This document shows positions 7,340 through 63,998 of a stretch of DNA of 64,000 nt, one piece after another; the first letter of the stretch is position 1, and each line of letters begins with the position of its first letter. Below the pieces are notes generated by a model. It had not been told where the DNA came from. It did not search any database and was given only the letters and a program-made list of their open reading frames with translations. The DNA is from a virus. Both the position numbers and the translations under genes were made by a program. Location of the stretch: IMG/VR virus record IMGVR_UViG_3300030060_004838, positions 31,976 to 95,975 of that record, one strand, 5' to 3'.

Positions 7340-7427
7340 GCTAAGGTGGCTGAGTTTGGTTAAAAGCGCAGGGCTTAAATTCCTGTCCAAAAATGGTTCG
7401 TAGGTTCAAATCCTACCCTTAGCACCA
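7340..7427 (+). tRNA. tRNA-Leu (anticodon UAA), CCA encoded
   Basis: The acceptor arm is GCTAAGG paired with CCTTAGC, and the T arm is GTAGG-TTCAAAT-CCTAC. The anticodon stem CAGGG/TCCTG encloses CTTAAAT, giving anticodon TAA. A variable arm with CCA/TGG pairing is long enough for a class II tRNA, as expected for Leu. The D-arm contains the usual GG. The 3' CCA is present in the DNA. It decodes UUA, a codon favoured by this AT-rich genome. Confidence 0.92.
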
Positions 7428-13367: not shown

Positions 13368-13938
13368 TTTACCTGTTTGTTCAGTTTGTGGTTGTATTCA
13401 GGCATATAGAATATATGAGGTAAGTGATATACCTAAAAATGAAAAAACATTTAGCACAGACTTAATGATGCTTATGAATGAGTTTGATATAGAAGATAAA
13501 GATGAAGTTATCAAAAATGATAAATATATTTCTTATACTAATATATATTATACTTATGATTTAGCGGAGAGGGCTTGTGCTATCTTATACTATACTATGA
13601 GGGATTTAAATAAACCTGCTATCATGTTGGATTATTGTAAATTTTTGGGATGCAAAACAAGTAGAGTAAGTAGACTTGCAAAAAGAATAGCAAGACATTA
13701 TTCAAATAGTGGAGTGTTTGGTATAAATGATATTGACGAGTTTTTGGATAATATGGAAATCAATAGTAAAGAAATTAGTGAAGCGTGTAAAGCGTGGAAT
13801 GAGCAACAAACCTTGACAAGAGGAATAATTGCGGCATATGTATATGAACACACAACATATACTCAAAAACAAGTGTGTGAAAAATTTGGAGTTAGTTTGC
13901 CAAGATTAAAAAGAAACTTAAGGAAAGTGAGAAAATGA
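13315..13938 (+). CDS. TFIIB-like transcription initiation factor (207 aa)
   Basis: C3-x2-C6 and C22-x2-C25 (C-S-V-C-G-C-I) form an N-terminal zinc ribbon. Two helical repeats follow. The second, around 165-200, contains T-R-G-I-I-A-A-Y-V-Y-E then T-Q-K-Q-V-C-E-K-F-G-V-S-L-P-R-L-K-R, which parallels the cyclin-fold repeat of archaeal TFB (A-A-x-x-Y ... T-Q-x-x-I-A-x-x-x-x-V-T). TFB recruits RNA polymerase to TBP-bound promoters; a viral copy could redirect host transcription. At 207 residues it is shorter than host TFB (about 300), so the first cyclin repeat seems reduced. It overlaps both neighbours. Confidence 0.7.
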   Translation: MPCVNCQAKHLNLNKEINLPVCSVCGCIQAYRIYEVSDIPKNEKTFSTDLMMLMNEFDIEDKDEVIKNDKYISYTNIYYTYDLAERACAILYYTMRDLNKPAIMLDYCKFLGCKTSRVSRLAKRIARHYSNSGVFGINDIDEFLDNMEINSKEISEACKAWNEQQTLTRGIIAAYVYEHTTYTQKQVCEKFGVSLPRLKRNLRKVRK

Positions 13939-14489
13939 AAAAGAGAGATGTATTGATAATAGGCGCAGGTGGAATTGGAAGTTTTCTAATACCATTGTTG
14001 GATAAAGTAGGATTGTATGACATAACAGTTTATGACCCTGATATTGTAGAGGAAAAGAATCTAACATATCAAAACTTTACCAAAGTAGACTTAGAAAAGA
14101 AAAAGGTAGATGCTATGAGTGAAAGATATAATATTGATGCTCAACCATATCCTGTTCTAACAGCAGGACAATTAAAGGGATATGATTTGGTAGTATGTTG
14201 TGCTGATAATTTAGATATTAGAAGAACAATGTATAATTCAAATGTTAAATGGTTAGACTTAAGAGCACAAGCAAGAAACGCTGCTATGATTTCACATTTA
14301 GAAGACCCGAAATTATATACTGTTTTTACAAGTGGACCAGATGGTTCTTTTTCTTGTCAAGGAGAATGGGATGGAAAACCTGAAGGGATTAATTTTATGC
14401 AAGTTGTAATTGCAGGTTATGGCGCACAATGGATTCAAAGATTCTTTACAGGCGACCATGTAGAAAAACACTTTAAAATTAATGGGTGA
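13935..14489 (+). CDS. E1/ThiF/MoeB-like adenylating enzyme (184 aa)
   Basis: This family adenylates the C-terminal glycine of ubiquitin-like proteins. Seen: the nucleotide-binding G10-A-G-G-I-G-S, Asp34 in V-Y-D-P-D, N42-L (family N-L-x-R-Q, here N-L-T-Y-Q), Lys56-58, and C-A-D91-N with Arg downstream. Cys141 (F-S-C-Q-G-E) sits where ThiF/E1 enzymes carry a catalytic or C-terminal cysteine, followed by G-Y-G-A-Q. The usual arginine is replaced by Tyr45. The protein is a minimal core without E1-type additional domains. It starts inside the stop of the TFIIB-like gene and lies 1.1 kb before a JAMM protease. ThiF for cofactor sulfur transfer is the main alternative. Confidence 0.8.
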   Translation: MKKRDVLIIGAGGIGSFLIPLLDKVGLYDITVYDPDIVEEKNLTYQNFTKVDLEKKKVDAMSERYNIDAQPYPVLTAGQLKGYDLVVCCADNLDIRRTMYNSNVKWLDLRAQARNAAMISHLEDPKLYTVFTSGPDGSFSCQGEWDGKPEGINFMQVVIAGYGAQWIQRFFTGDHVEKHFKING

Positions 14490-15350: not shown

Positions 15351-15544
15351 TGACAGAATGGAAATTAGGAATAGGAACAGGAAATGCAAAATGTAGAGTA
15401 TGTGGTAAGCCAATTAAAGAAGGCCAACCAATGATTAAAATAATTAATTCAAGGATTAGTGGACAGGTTCATTCTAATCCCTTTGAATGTGGAAAAGAAA
15501 GACAAGAACAATTAGGATTTGAATATGTAGGAGAGGAAGTATAA
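15350..15544 (+). CDS. Small zinc-binding protein (64 aa)
   Basis: ATG 15350 overlaps the stop of the previous gene. C-R-V-C-G (near residues 15-18) followed later by H-S-N-P-F-E-C suggests a PARP-type or related zinc site of the form C-x2-C...H-x5-C. Such fingers can bind nicked DNA, but at this length that is only a possibility. It directly precedes the JAMM gene, overlapping by one base. Confidence 0.55.
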   Translation: MTEWKLGIGTGNAKCRVCGKPIKEGQPMIKIINSRISGQVHSNPFECGKERQEQLGFEYVGEEV

Positions 15545-15987
15545 TGATAGAAAGAATGAATGATAATGAACTGTGGGATATGTGTAAAGATTTGATAAAT
15601 GCCGCTTATGTAAATAATTATGATGATGAAGATTTTCATGCATCTATTTGGCAGGTATCAGTAGATTTACTTGAAGGAAAAGAAGTTTCTGTAATTGTAG
15701 ATAAAGATAATAAATTATTTATTAGTAGAGGAACTGCAAGTTTCGTAGACTACAAAAATGAAAATGTAGCAGGTATGAAAATCCCTCTTAAATGCTGGAT
15801 TCATACTCACCCTTTTGGAACTGCTTATTTTAGTAGCACAGATTGGGGAACAATTAATGCCCAAGCACCTATATTAAATTCAGCAATTGTTCTTGGAAAT
15901 AAGGAGAGAATGAAATGGTGGAAGAACGATGGAAAAGAATTTCTGAGCAAGACTCATCTAATGGATTTAGACGAGTGCGAAGAATAA
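15544..15987 (+). CDS. JAMM/MPN+ metalloprotease (deubiquitinase-like, 147 aa)
   Basis: The JAMM signature is complete: H87-x-H89-P-x6-S97-x2-D100 in C-W-I-H-T-H-P-F-G ... S-S-T-D-W, with an upstream Glu (44 or 47) available. JAMM enzymes are zinc isopeptidases that remove ubiquitin-like proteins or process their C-termini. It lies 1.1 kb after the E1-like gene and 9 kb after a ubiquitin-like gene ending G-G-S-V, making that protein a likely substrate. GGAGAGGAAGTATA precedes ATG 15544. The C-terminal codons overlap the next gene by 73 bases. Cytoplasmic; no tail-tip domains, unlike phage TAPK proteins. Confidence 0.82.
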   Translation: MIERMNDNELWDMCKDLINAAYVNNYDDEDFHASIWQVSVDLLEGKEVSVIVDKDNKLFISRGTASFVDYKNENVAGMKIPLKCWIHTHPFGTAYFSSTDWGTINAQAPILNSAIVLGNKERMKWWKNDGKEFLSKTHLMDLDECEE

Positions 15988-16612: not shown

Positions 16613-16769
16613 ATGGTATGAAGATTGGAGTAATATAAGAGCATTAATTAGATTTTTACACGATGTAAAAGGTGTAGATTTTGATAATCTAATGTATGCT
16701 ATGGAAAAACCGTGGAAATATAATGATGAATATAAAGAAATGAGAGAATTGGAGAGTGAAGAAGAATGA
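16605..16769 (+). CDS. Small acidic hypothetical protein (54 aa)
   Basis: ATG 16605 lies within the end of the histone-like gene, with GGAGATGAAGAAG as ribosome site. The product is aromatic and acidic (W-Y-E-D-W ... E-E-E). It ends in an overlap with the DNA ligase start. Unknown role. Confidence 0.5.
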   Translation: MSEWYEDWSNIRALIRFLHDVKGVDFDNLMYAMEKPWKYNDEYKEMRELESEEE

Positions 16770-18253
16770 TGTGGAATGAATTTGCAAGAGTTAATGAAGA
16801 ATTTATAGATATGACACCTACACAAATGGTAAAGTATTTTGATGAAAACCCGATGGATAATACTGAAGAAATATTAAACCTATGGGCAAGAAATTATCCT
16901 AATAATGGTGCAGGTGAATCAGGTCTTATATCAAGAGTAGCAAAAAGATATGGAGTAGATGTTGATACAATTGAAACTTTAGTAGAAATACATGGTGGAG
17001 TAGGTGAAGCAATTGAAACTTTATTTGATGAGGCTGATGGAAATAGAGATATTACAGTATCAGATGTTTATAGTGCTTTACATGGACAAGATATGGAAAC
17101 TGTATTTACTGAAATAATGGATTGCTTTGACAATGTAAATGCTATGGGTAAGAAATGGCTTGCTGCTTTTCTTCTAAATCAAACAAGAAATAAATGTGGT
17201 AATAATGTTGTTAAAAAGATTTTACAAAAGACATACGGTATTCCTGCTGATGATATTAAGAAAGCAGTAAGTTTCCTACCTATCGAAGATGTAATTTACC
17301 AAGCAGTTAATAATGGTGCTTTAGTATATGTTCCCGAAGCAGGTAATTATATGAAACCAATGTTAGCAAAAGGTGGAGATTTTACAGTAAGAAATCGTAG
17401 ATTCTGTGATTATAAATATGATGGTATTAGAGCACAAATTCATAATAGTGAAGAAGGTATTACAATCTTCAATAGAAAGGGTGATGATATTACATCTAAA
17501 TTTGCTAATGATTTGGTCGAAGTAATAAAGAAAAATTCTGACCCTGTTGATTGGATTGCTGATGGGGAAATATATCCTATTGATGCTGACGGTAATCCTG
17601 CTGAATTTAAAAATATCATGAGTCGTATTCATGGTAAAACAGATGATGTTATTTATCGTAATCCTGTAACTATTAAATTATTTGACTGTATGATGTATGG
17701 TGGACAACCCGTGTTTGAAGATGATTTAGATACCCGTTGGGAAACTTTGAAAATGCATTTTGATAATAGTTTAGTTGCTAAAATGATAGAAATTAACTCT
17801 CATGAAGAAATGTTAGAAGTTTATAATGATGCTATTGAAGCAGGGTTTGAAGGAGTAATTGTAAAAGACCCTGAAATGATTTATGAATTTGGTGCAAGAA
17901 GTAAAGGTTGGTTAAAGTATAAACCACCTATGGTTGAAGTAGATGCTATTATTACAGGTGCTACAATGGGAACAGGAAAAAGAGCAGGTGTTTATGGTGC
18001 TTATGATATTTCTATTAAAGATGGAGATAATTTAATTTCTGTTGGAAAAGTAGGAAGTGGATTTACAGATTCTGACCTAACATTTTTAACCCAAGAGTAT
18101 AACCGATTAGGCGCAGGGAATTTAATTATTGAGGTAAAAGGTGACATGCTTACTAAAAATGAATCAGGAGATTATGGATTAAGATTTCCAAGATATGTTA
18201 AATACCGAGATGATAAAGAAGAACCTACACAATTAAAAGAAATATTGGAGTGA
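16766..18253 (+). CDS. lig: ATP-dependent DNA ligase (495 aa)
   Basis: It seals nicks in DNA using ATP. An N-terminal helical DNA-binding domain covers about 1-200. K-P-M-L-A at 207-211 leads into motif I, Y-K217-Y-D-G-I-R, with Lys217 as the adenylated residue. Motif III is D-G-E-I-Y, motif IV E-G-V-I-V-K, and motif V G-W-L-K-Y-K. An OB-fold C-terminus ends with R-F-P-R-Y-V-K-Y-R. The length and domain order fit archaeal replicative ligases, slightly short of the usual 550-600. It overlaps the preceding gene by four bases and precedes a small zinc protein with a PIP-like tail. Confidence 0.9.
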   Translation: MMWNEFARVNEEFIDMTPTQMVKYFDENPMDNTEEILNLWARNYPNNGAGESGLISRVAKRYGVDVDTIETLVEIHGGVGEAIETLFDEADGNRDITVSDVYSALHGQDMETVFTEIMDCFDNVNAMGKKWLAAFLLNQTRNKCGNNVVKKILQKTYGIPADDIKKAVSFLPIEDVIYQAVNNGALVYVPEAGNYMKPMLAKGGDFTVRNRRFCDYKYDGIRAQIHNSEEGITIFNRKGDDITSKFANDLVEVIKKNSDPVDWIADGEIYPIDADGNPAEFKNIMSRIHGKTDDVIYRNPVTIKLFDCMMYGGQPVFEDDLDTRWETLKMHFDNSLVAKMIEINSHEEMLEVYNDAIEAGFEGVIVKDPEMIYEFGARSKGWLKYKPPMVEVDAIITGATMGTGKRAGVYGAYDISIKDGDNLISVGKVGSGFTDSDLTFLTQEYNRLGAGNLIIEVKGDMLTKNESGDYGLRFPRYVKYRDDKEEPTQLKEILE

Positions 18254-50323: not shown

Positions 50324-50533
50324 TCACTTCATTTTATTTAATGATTTTTGAATTTCTTCCCCTTTATATGATTCAATTTCTTGATGTACCATTAATAATT
50401 CTTGTACTAAACTAAAAGGTAATTCAAATACCTCCTTTGGAGATATGTTTAAATCTTTAGCCAAAGTATAAAGTGAGAGTCTTGATGCTACTTTAGGATT
50501 GGTTATTTTACCACTCCTAATAGCAACCCTCAC
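50324..50533 (-). CDS. Tail assembly chaperone, second frame (frameshift product)
   Basis: The frame opens at GTG 50533, overlapping the TGA of the first chaperone frame. A slippery heptamer T-TTA-AAA at 50545-50539 allows a -1 shift from the first frame into this one, giving a 191-residue fusion (120 + 2 + 69). The product is basic and helical. This reproduces the gpG/gpGT arrangement of lambda, where the extension is used with the tape measure. Independent GTG initiation is possible. Confidence 0.65.
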   Translation of the reverse strand: MRVAIRSGKITNPKVASRLSLYTLAKDLNISPKEVFELPFSLVQELLMVHQEIESYKGEEIQKSLNKMK

Positions 50534-50898
50534 TTCTCTTTTAAATTATCATCCCCCTCCATCAAACTGAATGGGTCTGGAAGGATTGCTCTAATTTGTG
50601 AACCAACATAAGGCTTTAGCCTAATTAAATCAATAGCATTTAAAGCGGGTTCTGTTCTTTCAACAAAAGCATCCCATAAATATCTATAAACTTCATTCAT
50701 GTCAAATGAAACATCTTTGTTTTGCATATCTACATTAAACAGTTTCATCTGTGCTTGCTCTAATTGTAAATAAGTAGGTTCTTTAATCCACACCTTTAGG
50801 TATTCATCACCTTCAGGTTCAATCTTTACATAATGTAATTGCGCTTCTGTTCCTACTAATAATTTACTTTTGTCTCCTAAAATTTTCTTTTGTTCCAT
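50530..50898 (-). CDS. Tail assembly chaperone, first frame (122 aa)
   Basis: GGTGAAATATT precedes ATG 50898. The product has a beta N-terminus and a helical acidic C-terminus, consistent with tail-assembly chaperones, and lies between the tail tube and tape measure genes. The terminal codons include AAT TTA AAA with an SD-like GGAGGGGG seven bases upstream, features that promote -1 frameshifting. Sequence families of these chaperones are diverse; the call depends on context. Confidence 0.68.
   Translation of the reverse strand: MEQKKILGDKSKLLVGTEAQLHYVKIEPEGDEYLKVWIKEPTYLQLEQAQMKLFNVDMQNKDVSFDMNEVYRYLWDAFVERTEPALNAIDLIRLKPYVGSQIRAILPDPFSLMEGDDNLKEK
50539..50545 (-). promoter_or_regulatory. 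-1 frameshift slippery heptamer TTTAAAA
   Basis: The minus strand reads GAT AAT TTA AAA GAG AAG TGA, with T-TTA-AAA in phase. After a -1 slip the frame continues AGA GAA GTG AGG, exactly entering the second chaperone frame. An SD-like GGAGGGGG lies just upstream, like the internal stimulator in bacterial dnaX. Confidence 0.65.
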
Positions 50899-50930: not shown

Positions 50931-53249
50931 TTAACTTTGTAGTACCCAATGAGTTGTAGCACTAATTGTTCCTGTTCTAATAGGCATAATAGTAAAGTCT
51001 ACCATTACAGGACCTCTATCATCTTGAATAGGCCACGAAGCGGCACTAATCATATAATCATCAAATTCTAAACTTATGGATTCACCATTTGGCTTTGTAA
51101 ATGATAAAGCAATTTTAGCATTTGTACCATCGGCTGTTTCTCCTAAGTTAAAACGATGTGGAGATTGTCTTCTTAATTCATCAAATAATCTTCTGTCTGT
51201 AACCATAGCCTGAAATGTTACTTCATAAGTTCTTTGGCCTGGAACATAATACTTAATTTGATTGTTATAATTACCAACATATCTTTTGTCGGTCAATGTG
51301 TTATTTAGACTAATACTAAAAGTGCTAACTTTCAAAAATTCTTGTCCAAATAATGTAATAGAACCATTAGAGAAAAAGAATGGGTCTACAAATGACTGTA
51401 CAATATTACTGCTATCACCTGTTTGTTGTCCAAAGTTTAATAGATTTTTAAATTCAGAAGTATCATTATTTGTAGTATCATAACACTTTCCTACATATCC
51501 AGCAGGTGCTTCAAATACTCTCTTGGTATTTAGATTCAAAGTGACCTTTACTTCTTCATTTTCATTTGCAGATAGCGACATATCAGAAACTACACAGTTA
51601 GGATATACTTGTGCATATACACTCTCACTAAATGTATTTCTATCAACCATCAAAGTTTTGTTTGTACCATCTAATACATTACCCTTTTGTACTAATAACT
51701 CTAAAGCAAAAGATGGTAATTCATTATCATTTCTTTCTCCAAATGTATAAGTAATTCCTTTTTCTAATATACCTGATGTATTTTCAGCAGGGTTATCAAC
51801 TAAATATGCTGATGTAAAAGGCAATAAAGGAGGACATAGTGTTTGTGTACCTTTTAATACTCTATGGAATTTACCATTTGAAGTATGACCGCTTGATGCA
51901 AAATCATTATCAGTACCTGTATTTACACCTTGATATAATAAATGATTTGCTGCATTTCCATCACCACTCGGATGATTAAAAGCATTAGTATGTGTTTTTT
52001 GTGCACTTGCAGTAGAAGTTGCACTTGCTAATTTACCGAATGCATAATAAAGCCAAGAACCATGATTTAGATTAACATCAATACTTGCAGCACCAGCAGT
52101 TTCAATTCCTCTATATTGATATGAGTAATTTCTACTACCTGCTAAAGATAGATTCATTTGTTTTGTTTCCATCTCTACTTGTGGAATACCAACAGAATTA
52201 GTTAATCCAATCCAATTGTTTGATAAAATTCTTGGCGAAACAGTATTAATACTTGTTTGTGTAGTAATAACACTTGATACTCTTTTACCCCAATAAATTT
52301 CATCAGCCGCAGTAGCGGTAGCACTTGCACTTTGAGCATATGTAACTGTTAAACCATCTGCTGAAAGGCTAATTACCTTTCCTAAAACTGTTGCACTTGC
52401 TCTTGTATCAGCATGATTAGAAATATAATCACCAGAAGTAAGATAACCTGTTAAACTTGAAGGAACAGTAATGCTTCCAATACCATTTGATTCTGTTGAA
52501 CCACCTGCTAATGTGCCTAATGTATCTGATAAGAAATGAATTGTATCATCTGTTGAAGTACCATCATGTTCTTCGGGATAATTAGCCTTAGTTAATGCAG
52601 TACCATCAGCACTAAAACCCCAAACTTTACCAACAAATACTTGAGAATCTGTATAAATTAAATCTCCAACTTTTAAGTTTTCAACACTACCATCAATTCC
52701 TGAATCAGCAGACACCACTAATTGATGAGCACTATAACCACTTGTATTATTTGAATTTCTTTTTTCTAAACTAATAGGTGCTGGAATAACTGCACCGTTA
52801 GCCTTCAAAATAATATAACCTCTTTCTCTACCTGTTCCTACTGCGGCATCTTGGTCTGCAAAAAGATTGGGATAATCGCTTAATTGTCCTGAAAAATAAA
52901 TTGCATCAGCATCATTACCTGCAACATTAGCACTAAATTTTAATGTTGGGGCTGTTGATGAATTATCGGTATAATAAAATTCAGCAGTACAACCTGTATA
53001 TAAATCAGGAACCAAATGATAATAATCAGTAAAATGTTTTACTGCATCTGTTCCTTCTCCGTGTGCATTTTCAATTACTACACTTGAACCATCTACTCCA
53101 TATCCTAATGAATATTTAATTAGATGTGCTTTGTTCGTTCCTGTTCTTCCTAAAGTTGGACCATAAGGCATATAACCTAAGAATAATTCGCTTTCAGGGG
53201 CTAAGGTTACTGATTGACCTGAACCCATCCATGTTTCTGTACTTACCAT
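50931..53249 (-). CDS. Major tail tube protein with large insertions (772 aa)
   Basis: CGGTGATAAA precedes ATG 53249. The C-terminal 150 residues (Y-V-G-N-Y-N-N-Q-I-K, Y-E-V-T-F-Q-A-M-V-T-D, M-V-D-F-T-I-M) look like the beta core of a tail tube protein. The N-terminal 500 residues are beta-rich and Gly/Ser/Thr/Asp-rich, perhaps surface domains. It is much longer than usual tubes (150-350). It sits between the tail terminator and chaperone genes, which fixes the role. Confidence 0.65.
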   Translation of the reverse strand: MVSTETWMGSGQSVTLAPESELFLGYMPYGPTLGRTGTNKAHLIKYSLGYGVDGSSVVIENAHGEGTDAVKHFTDYYHLVPDLYTGCTAEFYYTDNSSTAPTLKFSANVAGNDADAIYFSGQLSDYPNLFADQDAAVGTGRERGYIILKANGAVIPAPISLEKRNSNNTSGYSAHQLVVSADSGIDGSVENLKVGDLIYTDSQVFVGKVWGFSADGTALTKANYPEEHDGTSTDDTIHFLSDTLGTLAGGSTESNGIGSITVPSSLTGYLTSGDYISNHADTRASATVLGKVISLSADGLTVTYAQSASATATAADEIYWGKRVSSVITTQTSINTVSPRILSNNWIGLTNSVGIPQVEMETKQMNLSLAGSRNYSYQYRGIETAGAASIDVNLNHGSWLYYAFGKLASATSTASAQKTHTNAFNHPSGDGNAANHLLYQGVNTGTDNDFASSGHTSNGKFHRVLKGTQTLCPPLLPFTSAYLVDNPAENTSGILEKGITYTFGERNDNELPSFALELLVQKGNVLDGTNKTLMVDRNTFSESVYAQVYPNCVVSDMSLSANENEEVKVTLNLNTKRVFEAPAGYVGKCYDTTNNDTSEFKNLLNFGQQTGDSSNIVQSFVDPFFFSNGSITLFGQEFLKVSTFSISLNNTLTDKRYVGNYNNQIKYYVPGQRTYEVTFQAMVTDRRLFDELRRQSPHRFNLGETADGTNAKIALSFTKPNGESISLEFDDYMISAASWPIQDDRGPVMVDFTIMPIRTGTISATTHWVLQS

Positions 53250-62138: not shown

Positions 62139-63998
62139 TTAATCATTAGAATATGTAATAGATTTATATTTATCTTTACCTAAATCCCACAAACCTTCAT
62201 CGCTATCTTTATCAGTTGGTTTAGTTTCATAACCTGTCCATGCTATCCACTTATTTTCATCCATAATTGGTACTACTCTAATATGAAATTTACCTTGATA
62301 CATTTTACCATCTAATAAATATTCATGATAACCATCTCTTTGTGCACCTAATTTTATAATGCCTTCATCTAACATTTTATTTTTATCAGGCTTATCATCT
62401 ATTTCTGCTAAGTATTTGGTAGCCTTTCCAAACAATTCATAAATATCTTTTGTATTATCTTGTTCTATTCTCCAATTAAATGTTTTACCTTTAGCACTAT
62501 AAATAAAATTCAAATCACCATCTTCTCTTTTCCAAACTTCATATTTATCTTCAGCCTTTCCTATTTTATTAAAATCTGATTCTGGTAATTTAACTAATGT
62601 TTTTTCATCGTAATAATAAACTTTAGTTTTATCATTATACAAAATACCAAAAGCCTTTGCTCTTTCGTTAATCCATTTAATTAAATCATTATCGCTTTTT
62701 TCGTCAAACATTCTTTTAATAATATCAGGTGCTCTTTTATTTATTTCTTGAATTAATTCTTTTTTAGTAATATTTCTTTCATTAACTATCTGTGAAACAA
62801 CGGACATTAATTTACCACTATCTTTTTTGTAAAGTTTGCCTAATTCTTCTTTCCATAAATCAATATCTATAATCGCATTTTTAGCCATTAAGTTATCTTG
62901 ATAAAATCCTGATAGTACGAAACCATCAGTATCAATACTTGTATTTAATTCTACTATACCGTGTATATTATCAGTTAAAGTATAAGATTTTTTTAAGGCT
63001 TCTAAGTTATAATCTGATGCTGATTTCTTGTTATCTTTAGATAAAAACTCAAGTGTAATAATTTTTTCAGGTTCCGTAACTTCAGGTTTTTCTATAACTT
63101 TAGCACTATACACAGAAAATCCGGTTTTTGTTTTCTTTACTTCATCTACTTTAACTCTAATAATTTTACCTATTTCAGATTTAATTTTAGTATTGAGTGC
63201 TTTACCTACTGAAAGATAATCTCTATTATTATATCTTTTAATTGGTTTATATTCTTCATTACCAATTGGTCCTGCACCTAAAGTATAACTAAATGTTCCA
63301 TTTTTATTTTTTCTAACATCTAATACAAGTAAATCTAAATCAACAAACTTTTTCCATTTTACCCATTTAGGATTTTTCTTTTTACCTACTATATATGATG
63401 ACTTAGAATCTTTAATCATTACACCTTCTGATGTAGGATTATTCATAATCACCTTAGCGTATTCTTCAATTTCTTCTAATGAGTCAGCGAATCTTGTATT
63501 TGATTTAGTAGGGAATTGCAAGTAAGTATCTGAAAGTTTTGTAAATTCACCCATTAATAATCTCAATCTTTCTTCAAGTTTATTTTTCCAAATATGTTCT
63601 CCCCTTAACTTCATTATATCAAAAACATGAACCTTTAACTCAAATGCTTTATCATCCTTTTTTGAGTTAATATAAGAAATGGTATCGGCTCTATGTAATG
63701 GTTCATCGTTTTCGTATAAAACTACTTCAGCATCTAATACACATTCAGGGAAATCTTTATCCTGTAAAATTTTAATCTGTCTATCAAATTTACTTGTAAT
63801 ATCTCTATTATTAAAAGAGTAAATTTTTATTGTATTCTTTTTATGAATTTGTATTCTCATACCATCATACTTTTCTTGTACAACATATTCACCTGTAAAT
63901 CCTTTTAATTCTTTCATATCGTCTATTTCAAAAATGCGATACATTGGCTTATTAGGAATAATAAAATCATTAAGGGTATCTTTTTCTTCTTTTAACAT
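62139..63998 (-). CDS. DNA-ligase-like nucleotidyltransferase in the morphogenesis module (at least 619 aa, start uncertain)
   Basis: Motif I E-K43-Y-D-G-M-R, motif III L-D-A-E-V-V, motif IV E-G-V-M-I-K-D and motif V W-V-K-W-K-K match ATP-dependent DNA ligases, followed by an OB-like region. About 300 further residues (starting near 330) are unrelated to ligases: helical, then strand-rich ending W-I-A-W-T-G-Y. The frame touches the right edge (ATG 63998 without visible ribosome site), so more N-terminus may lie outside. It lies before the prohead protease, where portal genes often are. It may repair or seal packaged DNA, or serve another role. Confidence 0.72.
   Translation of the reverse strand: MLKEEKDTLNDFIIPNKPMYRIFEIDDMKELKGFTGEYVVQEKYDGMRIQIHKKNTIKIYSFNNRDITSKFDRQIKILQDKDFPECVLDAEVVLYENDEPLHRADTISYINSKKDDKAFELKVHVFDIMKLRGEHIWKNKLEERLRLLMGEFTKLSDTYLQFPTKSNTRFADSLEEIEEYAKVIMNNPTSEGVMIKDSKSSYIVGKKKNPKWVKWKKFVDLDLLVLDVRKNKNGTFSYTLGAGPIGNEEYKPIKRYNNRDYLSVGKALNTKIKSEIGKIIRVKVDEVKKTKTGFSVYSAKVIEKPEVTEPEKIITLEFLSKDNKKSASDYNLEALKKSYTLTDNIHGIVELNTSIDTDGFVLSGFYQDNLMAKNAIIDIDLWKEELGKLYKKDSGKLMSVVSQIVNERNITKKELIQEINKRAPDIIKRMFDEKSDNDLIKWINERAKAFGILYNDKTKVYYYDEKTLVKLPESDFNKIGKAEDKYEVWKREDGDLNFIYSAKGKTFNWRIEQDNTKDIYELFGKATKYLAEIDDKPDKNKMLDEGIIKLGAQRDGYHEYLLDGKMYQGKFHIRVVPIMDENKWIAWTGYETKPTDKDSDEGLWDLGKDKYKSITYSND

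Follow-up and report, generated by a model that had tools for sequence, protein, structure and literature searches.

The window, the whole stretch of 64,000 nucleotides analysed here, is part of a 95,975-base IMG/VR virus record. On its minus strand, two short overlapping open reading frames (ORF1 and ORF2) lie between the genes for a tail tube protein and a tape measure protein. The features of the locus, in the direction of reading, are as follows.

50931 to 53249, minus strand: tail tube protein gene, next upstream (Pfam Phage_tube_2, E 9e-17)
50530 to 50898, minus strand: ORF1, 122 aa, zero-frame product of the tail assembly chaperone, with a putative lambda gpG-like role
50553 to 50560, minus strand: internal Shine-Dalgarno (SD)-like element GGAGGGGG, 7 nt 5' of the heptamer
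50539 to 50545, minus strand: slippery heptamer T_TTA_AAA, in phase
50470 to 50536, minus strand: 3' hairpin, candidate stimulator, 67 nt, -30.8 kcal/mol
50530 to 50532, minus strand: zero-frame stop TGA, end of the short product
50324 to 50539, minus strand: ORF2, the -1 frame extension (lambda T-like domain), 71 post-shift residues and the stop codon
48283 to 50319, minus strand: the next gene downstream, for the tape measure protein (PHROG tape measure, E 9.8e-7)

The gene order tube, chaperone, chaperone, tape measure, which a sequence-only reading of this DNA had proposed, is thus borne out by profile matches for the two outer genes with the overlapping ORFs between them. The same neighbourhood was found in the relatives described below, of which 84 of 95 have a homologue of the tube gene upstream and 82 have one of the tape measure gene downstream. 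Against the PHROG tail assembly chaperone profiles, 9 of 14 relatives match for ORF1 (best E 1.7e-6) and 9 of 12 for ORF2 (best E 1.5e-4). The predicted fold of ORF1 (pLDDT 75) resembles the tail assembly chaperone of HHTV-2 (E 1.8e-4, TMq 0.66), and its profile aligns with HVTV-1 gp129 (hhalign E 2.9e-5). The homology with the haloviral chaperones is visible by profile and fold only; a tblastn search of ORF1 against named phages gave no match, nor did a Foldseek search of the predicted fold against the PDB. Together, the profiles and the predicted fold identify ORF1 and ORF2 as the tail assembly chaperone gene.

At the junction, the heptamer stands exactly where it had been described, in phase and with its TTA four codons before the stop, the zero frame ending as AAT TTA AAA GAG AAG TGA. 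Traced upstream, the open part of the ORF2 frame ends exactly at the heptamer. When the frames are translated, a -1 shift at this site enters the overlapping second frame exactly, and the product has 120 + 71 = 191 residues, the fusion length given earlier. Read instead from its own GTG, ORF2 spans 50324-50533 on the minus strand and encodes 69 aa, and this GTG (50531-50533) overlaps the ORF1 stop as GTGA.

For comparison, relatives were collected from 58 IMG/VR records found by ORF1 protein search, the best 80 of 347 found by profile search, and one metagenome-assembled genome (MAG) contig; removal of duplicates left 95 distinct junctions, the window included. An in-phase X_XXY_YYZ heptamer is present at the junction in all 95. 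In the bodies of the same ORF1s such heptamers occur in phase at a rate of 0.0053 per codon, which predicts one in about 8% of 15-codon stretches as compared to the 95/95 observed, where it has to be considered that the relatives share kinship and the 95 junctions are not independent. The heptamer starts 7 to 52 nt ahead of the ORF1 stop, the farthest site (at -52) being that of L108. Its type changes among the relatives: A_AAA_AAC dominates (43 counts), followed by T_TTA_AAA (25), G_GGA_AAZ (14, consisting of 10 G_GGA_AAC, 2 G_GGA_AAA and 2 G_GGA_AAG), A_AAA_AAG (11) and A_AAA_AAA (2). The zero-frame residues vary correspondingly (Leu-Lys, Lys-Asn, Lys-Lys, Gly-Asn and Gly-Lys), and the re-pairing rule stays constant. 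On the ORF1 tree, T_TTA_AAA arose once, and at least 5 changes are needed for the site classes, defined by the heptamer type and by a shift of -1 or -2. The shift required is -1 in 91 of the 95 sequences and -2 in the other 4. Conservation of the heptamer in related viruses, which the sequence-only reading had named as a check, therefore holds for the pattern with the type changing. The case which it had named as contrary evidence, namely a relative with the heptamer lost, both frames intact and a conserved start, was absent from the 95 and also from 41 junctions examined from a later ORF2 search. L144 (NZMJ01000011.1), a contig from the MAG of a bacterium, Maricaulis, carries the tail module of this virus family with G_GGA_AAC; the contig is probably a binning contaminant.

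The SD-like sequence reported just upstream of the heptamer is present as GGAGGGGG. It is kept at the nucleotide level in the relatives, since the Gly at the key codon is GGG in 47 of 53 cases against a background of 10%, while Glu is encoded by GAG in 31 of 34, and in 25 of 25 one codon earlier, against 16%. Using an anti-SD sequence that we take to be the general archaeal one, the predicted pairing energy of the window's element is -12.3 kcal/mol, a value that may differ for the 16S rRNA end of Poseidoniales. With a threshold of -5 kcal/mol for pairing to the archaeal anti-SD, 78% of 41 gene starts of the virus use an SD, compared with 16% of control sites. The element is a candidate stimulator of the dnaX type, kept by extreme codon choice.

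The hairpin, which was absent from the earlier reading, begins 2 nt past the heptamer. Its z-score in the window is -6.49, and 0 of 200 shuffles folded as low. For 94 relatives, the mean z of the downstream fold is -3.5; control stretches drawn from the same genes average -0.39. In a named pairing register, compensatory changes were found for 11 of 14 outer pairs among 32 relatives with A-type heptamers, and the covariation score of 0.356, compared with 0.136-0.168 when the partner was slid, is somewhat favoured by the register having been taken from folds of some of the same sequences. The T_TTA_AAA clade scores lower (0.176 compared with 0.043-0.113), and the signal is weak outside the nearest kin of the window; shuffled sequences fold as well as some members of this clade (L007, z -1.27). 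RNAalifold gave no common structure on the two clades. We account for this by the helix ends, which slide between subclades.

The second frame also behaves as the continuation of the first. In 69 of the 95 sequences the open part of the ORF2 frame starts precisely 3 nt ahead of the heptamer, and in 4 others it starts at the heptamer itself (73/95 together). The alignment of the transframe proteins is unbroken across the junction. ORF2 is under purifying selection, with dN/dS of 0.05-0.41 in 15 pairs; its alignment is too variable for a degenerate-pattern scan.

These observations bear on three other explanations of the two frames. ORF2 could be an independent cistron whose translation begins at the GTG, by termination-reinitiation at GTGA, with the heptamer incidental. 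The overlap of GTG and TGA makes this formally possible in this one virus, and NTGA overlaps exist in many relatives too, but any TGA stop preceded by A, G or T produces such an overlap. The start of ORF2 is not conserved: the position of the first ATG, GTG or TTG in its frame ranges from 4 codons ahead of the shift point to 39 codons past it, and no such codon occurs within 18 codons after the shift in 42 of 94 relatives. Moreover, the SD-like element is 19 nt from the GTG, which is outside the normal spacing for a start and suitably placed for a frameshift, and a separate cistron would leave the heptamer, its in-phase placement and the upstream codon bias unexplained. We therefore consider this explanation very unlikely.

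The frames could also be joined by transcriptional rather than ribosomal slippage, with the RNA polymerase slipping on a run of A. Runs of at least 6 A at the site are indeed present in 56 of 95 relatives. On the other hand, in the TTTAAAA of the window and the GGGAAAZ sites, together 39 of 95, runs reach 4 at most, which is too short for usual polymerase slippage; the heptamer variants obey tandem tRNA re-pairing, and the hairpin and SD-like element are signals for ribosomes, so that polymerase slippage is extremely improbable. As the window comes from a single metagenomic contig and the adjoining frame is offset by one, it might further be supposed that ORF1 and ORF2 are one ORF that was broken by decay or by an error in sequencing or assembly. 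The chance of this is practically negligible when the frame arrangement recurs in relatives from many metagenomes (91/95 requiring -1 and 4 requiring -2) and ORF2 is under purifying selection.

The programmed -1 frameshift in the tail assembly chaperone that the sequence-only reading had proposed is thus strongly supported at the sequence level by the heptamer, the SD-like element, the hairpin, the chaperone matches and the lack of a conserved start. We consider it very probable that ORF1 and ORF2 form a single gene from which a -1 slip at U_UUA_AAA yields a second product, and the comparative evidence brings programmed -1 frameshifting close to certain. The slippage that we infer would proceed as follows. 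Most ribosomes would stop at the TGA (50530-50532) and release the short 122 aa chaperone. A minority would be paused by pairing of GGAGGGGG with the 3' end of the 16S rRNA and by the hairpin ahead, and would slip back one base at U_UUA_AAA, the tRNA-Leu in the P site moving from UUA to UUU and the tRNA-Lys in the A site from AAA to AAA. The slipped ribosomes would then read on into ORF2 and produce the 191-residue fusion, presumably the rarer form. By analogy with gpG and gpGT of lambda, the short form may coat the tape measure protein and the long form may recruit tube subunits; given these two roles, we propose that the rate of slippage would set the ratio needed for the correct tail length. 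We also considered the virus's own tRNA-Leu(UAA) (window 7340-7427, plus strand), which reads the P-site UUA, as an adaptation to the slippery site. This was rejected, because the nearest relative, L002, has T_TTA_AAA and no tRNA match, and viruses with A_AAA_AAZ and G_GGA_AAZ carry tRNA-Leu(UAA) too, giving no correlation with the heptamer type.

Frameshifting in tail assembly chaperones is described as general in tailed phages (Xu, Hendrix, Duda 2004, as cited in PMC5009743). Among archaeal viruses, HVTV-1 and HCTV-1, -2 and -5 (Pietila 2013 and Sencilo 2013, as cited in PMC5009743; PMC8211752) and Hardycor1 (PMC7911831) already have predicted -1 shifts, while the shift predicted for HSTV-2 and the HF1 group is +1 (PMC5009743, PMC7230728). 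Given the haloviral -1 predictions, the window is not the first archaeal case. The only archaeal -1 frameshift studied experimentally is that of Saccharolobus fucA1, the viral cases being a few halovirus predictions (PMC8211752). It had been claimed that the present case would show frameshifting operating on archaeal ribosomes, which is beyond what a sequence can establish. U_UUA_AAA is not listed as a heptamer for haloviruses. A word search of the magrovirus study PMC10160649 gave no mention of frameshifting, three ICTV profiles are likewise silent on it, and no frameshift is mentioned for magroviruses in PMC10768690 and PMC12999244. We regard the window as a further predicted -1 case in archaeal viruses, which would extend the prediction to marine, magrovirus-like viruses with an unusually full set of signals.

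When compared to HVTV-1, the same gene, with a homologous ORF1, occupies the same place before the tape measure gene, and a -1 shift is predicted at an X_XXY_YYZ heptamer shortly before ORF1 ends (G_GGA_AAG; NC_020158 is annotated as a join). A GGAGG is also found 10 nt 5' of that heptamer (L062:7925-7971), without mention in the cited HVTV-1 literature. The two differ downstream, where no hairpin stands out from chance in HVTV-1 (z -0.17). The haloviruses are further distinguished by fewer sequences, and so less conservation evidence, and by a known host. The difference from gpG/gpGT of lambda is that the ribosome here would be archaeal. With E. coli dnaX the window shares the three parts, namely the internal SD, the slippery heptamer and the 3' stem-loop (PMC5009743); the gene and its role are different, the distance between SD and heptamer is about 7 nt here, and the shift yields the longer product here and the shorter one in dnaX. 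In E. coli, A_AAA_AAC is much less shifty than A_AAA_AAG (PMC5009743), whereas AAC is the commonest A-site codon in the present family, unlike the E. coli optimum. The family provides over 90 distinct natural cassettes with a conserved heptamer, an SD-like element and, in most, a hairpin, with which the response of archaeal ribosomes to stimulators of the bacterial type is directly testable.

The 4 sequences for which the downstream frame requires a -2 shift are the pairs L043/L049 and L138/L143. A pattern scan for the -2 site found 13 contigs (L145-L157; also L158-L170), and a protein search with ORF2 of L138, in which the site was not presupposed, returned the same 13 contigs, about 10 of them distinct. 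All 13 contain GAAAAAAAGGATGATT with ORF2 in the -2 (-2/+1) frame, and sister sequences from the same search are -1. The site, G-A7-GG-ATG, is conserved in all 13; its A7 lets both tRNAs re-pair after a -2 shift, and a -1 shift there would terminate after one codon. The SD-like element and hairpins (z -2.7, -4.5 and -5.2) are kept. In every case an ATG is the second codon past the shift point, with the SD-like element 15 nt away, so reinitiation is possible for ORF2 in these contigs. The ORF1 tree gives two origins for -2, and recombination at the junction is possible. On balance we lean slightly towards the view that this sublineage of 13 contigs (about 10 distinct, possibly of two origins) has swapped the -1 for a -2 shift at GAAAAAAAGG with the SD-like element and hairpin retained. 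If true, this would offer a natural comparison of -1 and -2 on one scaffold in one family of marine archaeal viruses. We know of no earlier proposal of -2 programmed frameshifting on archaeal ribosomes. A known -2 shift is that of phage Mu (PMC5009743), to which the sublineage L145-L157 is similar in joining the same two domains by -2; the site here is G-A7-GG, the -2 shift is a prediction, and it is not the mechanism of the window itself.

The affiliation of the virus was judged from its genes. Matches of the major capsid protein (MCP) are to archaeal viruses only, with kinship to Druskaviridae, and the best matches of PolB are haloviral. An RFC-like ATPase, an ERCC4 nuclease, PolB and an ATP-dependent ligase together constitute an archaeal-type replisome, and two gene modules run in opposite directions, as in the descriptions of Magrovirales (PMC10768690, PMC12999244). 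The archaeal-type replisome, the opposed modules and the MCP kin to Druskaviridae are gene content that the virus shares with Magrovirales (viruses of Poseidoniales). Aoguangviridae and Magrovirales are described with genomes of 90-110 kb, opposed replication and morphogenesis modules, PolB, RFC-S, ligase and ERCC4 nuclease, and with a tail assembly chaperone gene labelled in Aobingvirus (PMC10768690, PMC12999244); the likeness of the present virus to them is one of gene content. From these features, this marine virus very probably infects archaea, and its hosts are probably Poseidoniales.

Some other observations were made in this virus and its relatives. Three related records (L212, L213 and L215, at about 1500-1663) carry a tRNA-Lys(UUU) with an intron of about 88 nt in the anticodon loop, which points to hosts that splice tRNAs. 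The window has two different ATP-dependent DNA ligases, at 16766-18253 (plus strand) and 62139-63998 (minus strand); the second, whose long C-terminal part matches no family, lies in the structural module, adjoining the prohead protease. At 13935-14489 and 15544-15987 (plus strand), a ThiF/E1-like protein (Pfam E 4e-16) is found near a Prok-JAB-like protein, the latter with a weak match below the cut-off (E 8e-4) and an HxHx7SxxD motif. Judged by these matches, the two may be a ubiquitin-like activation and removal pair in an archaeal virus.
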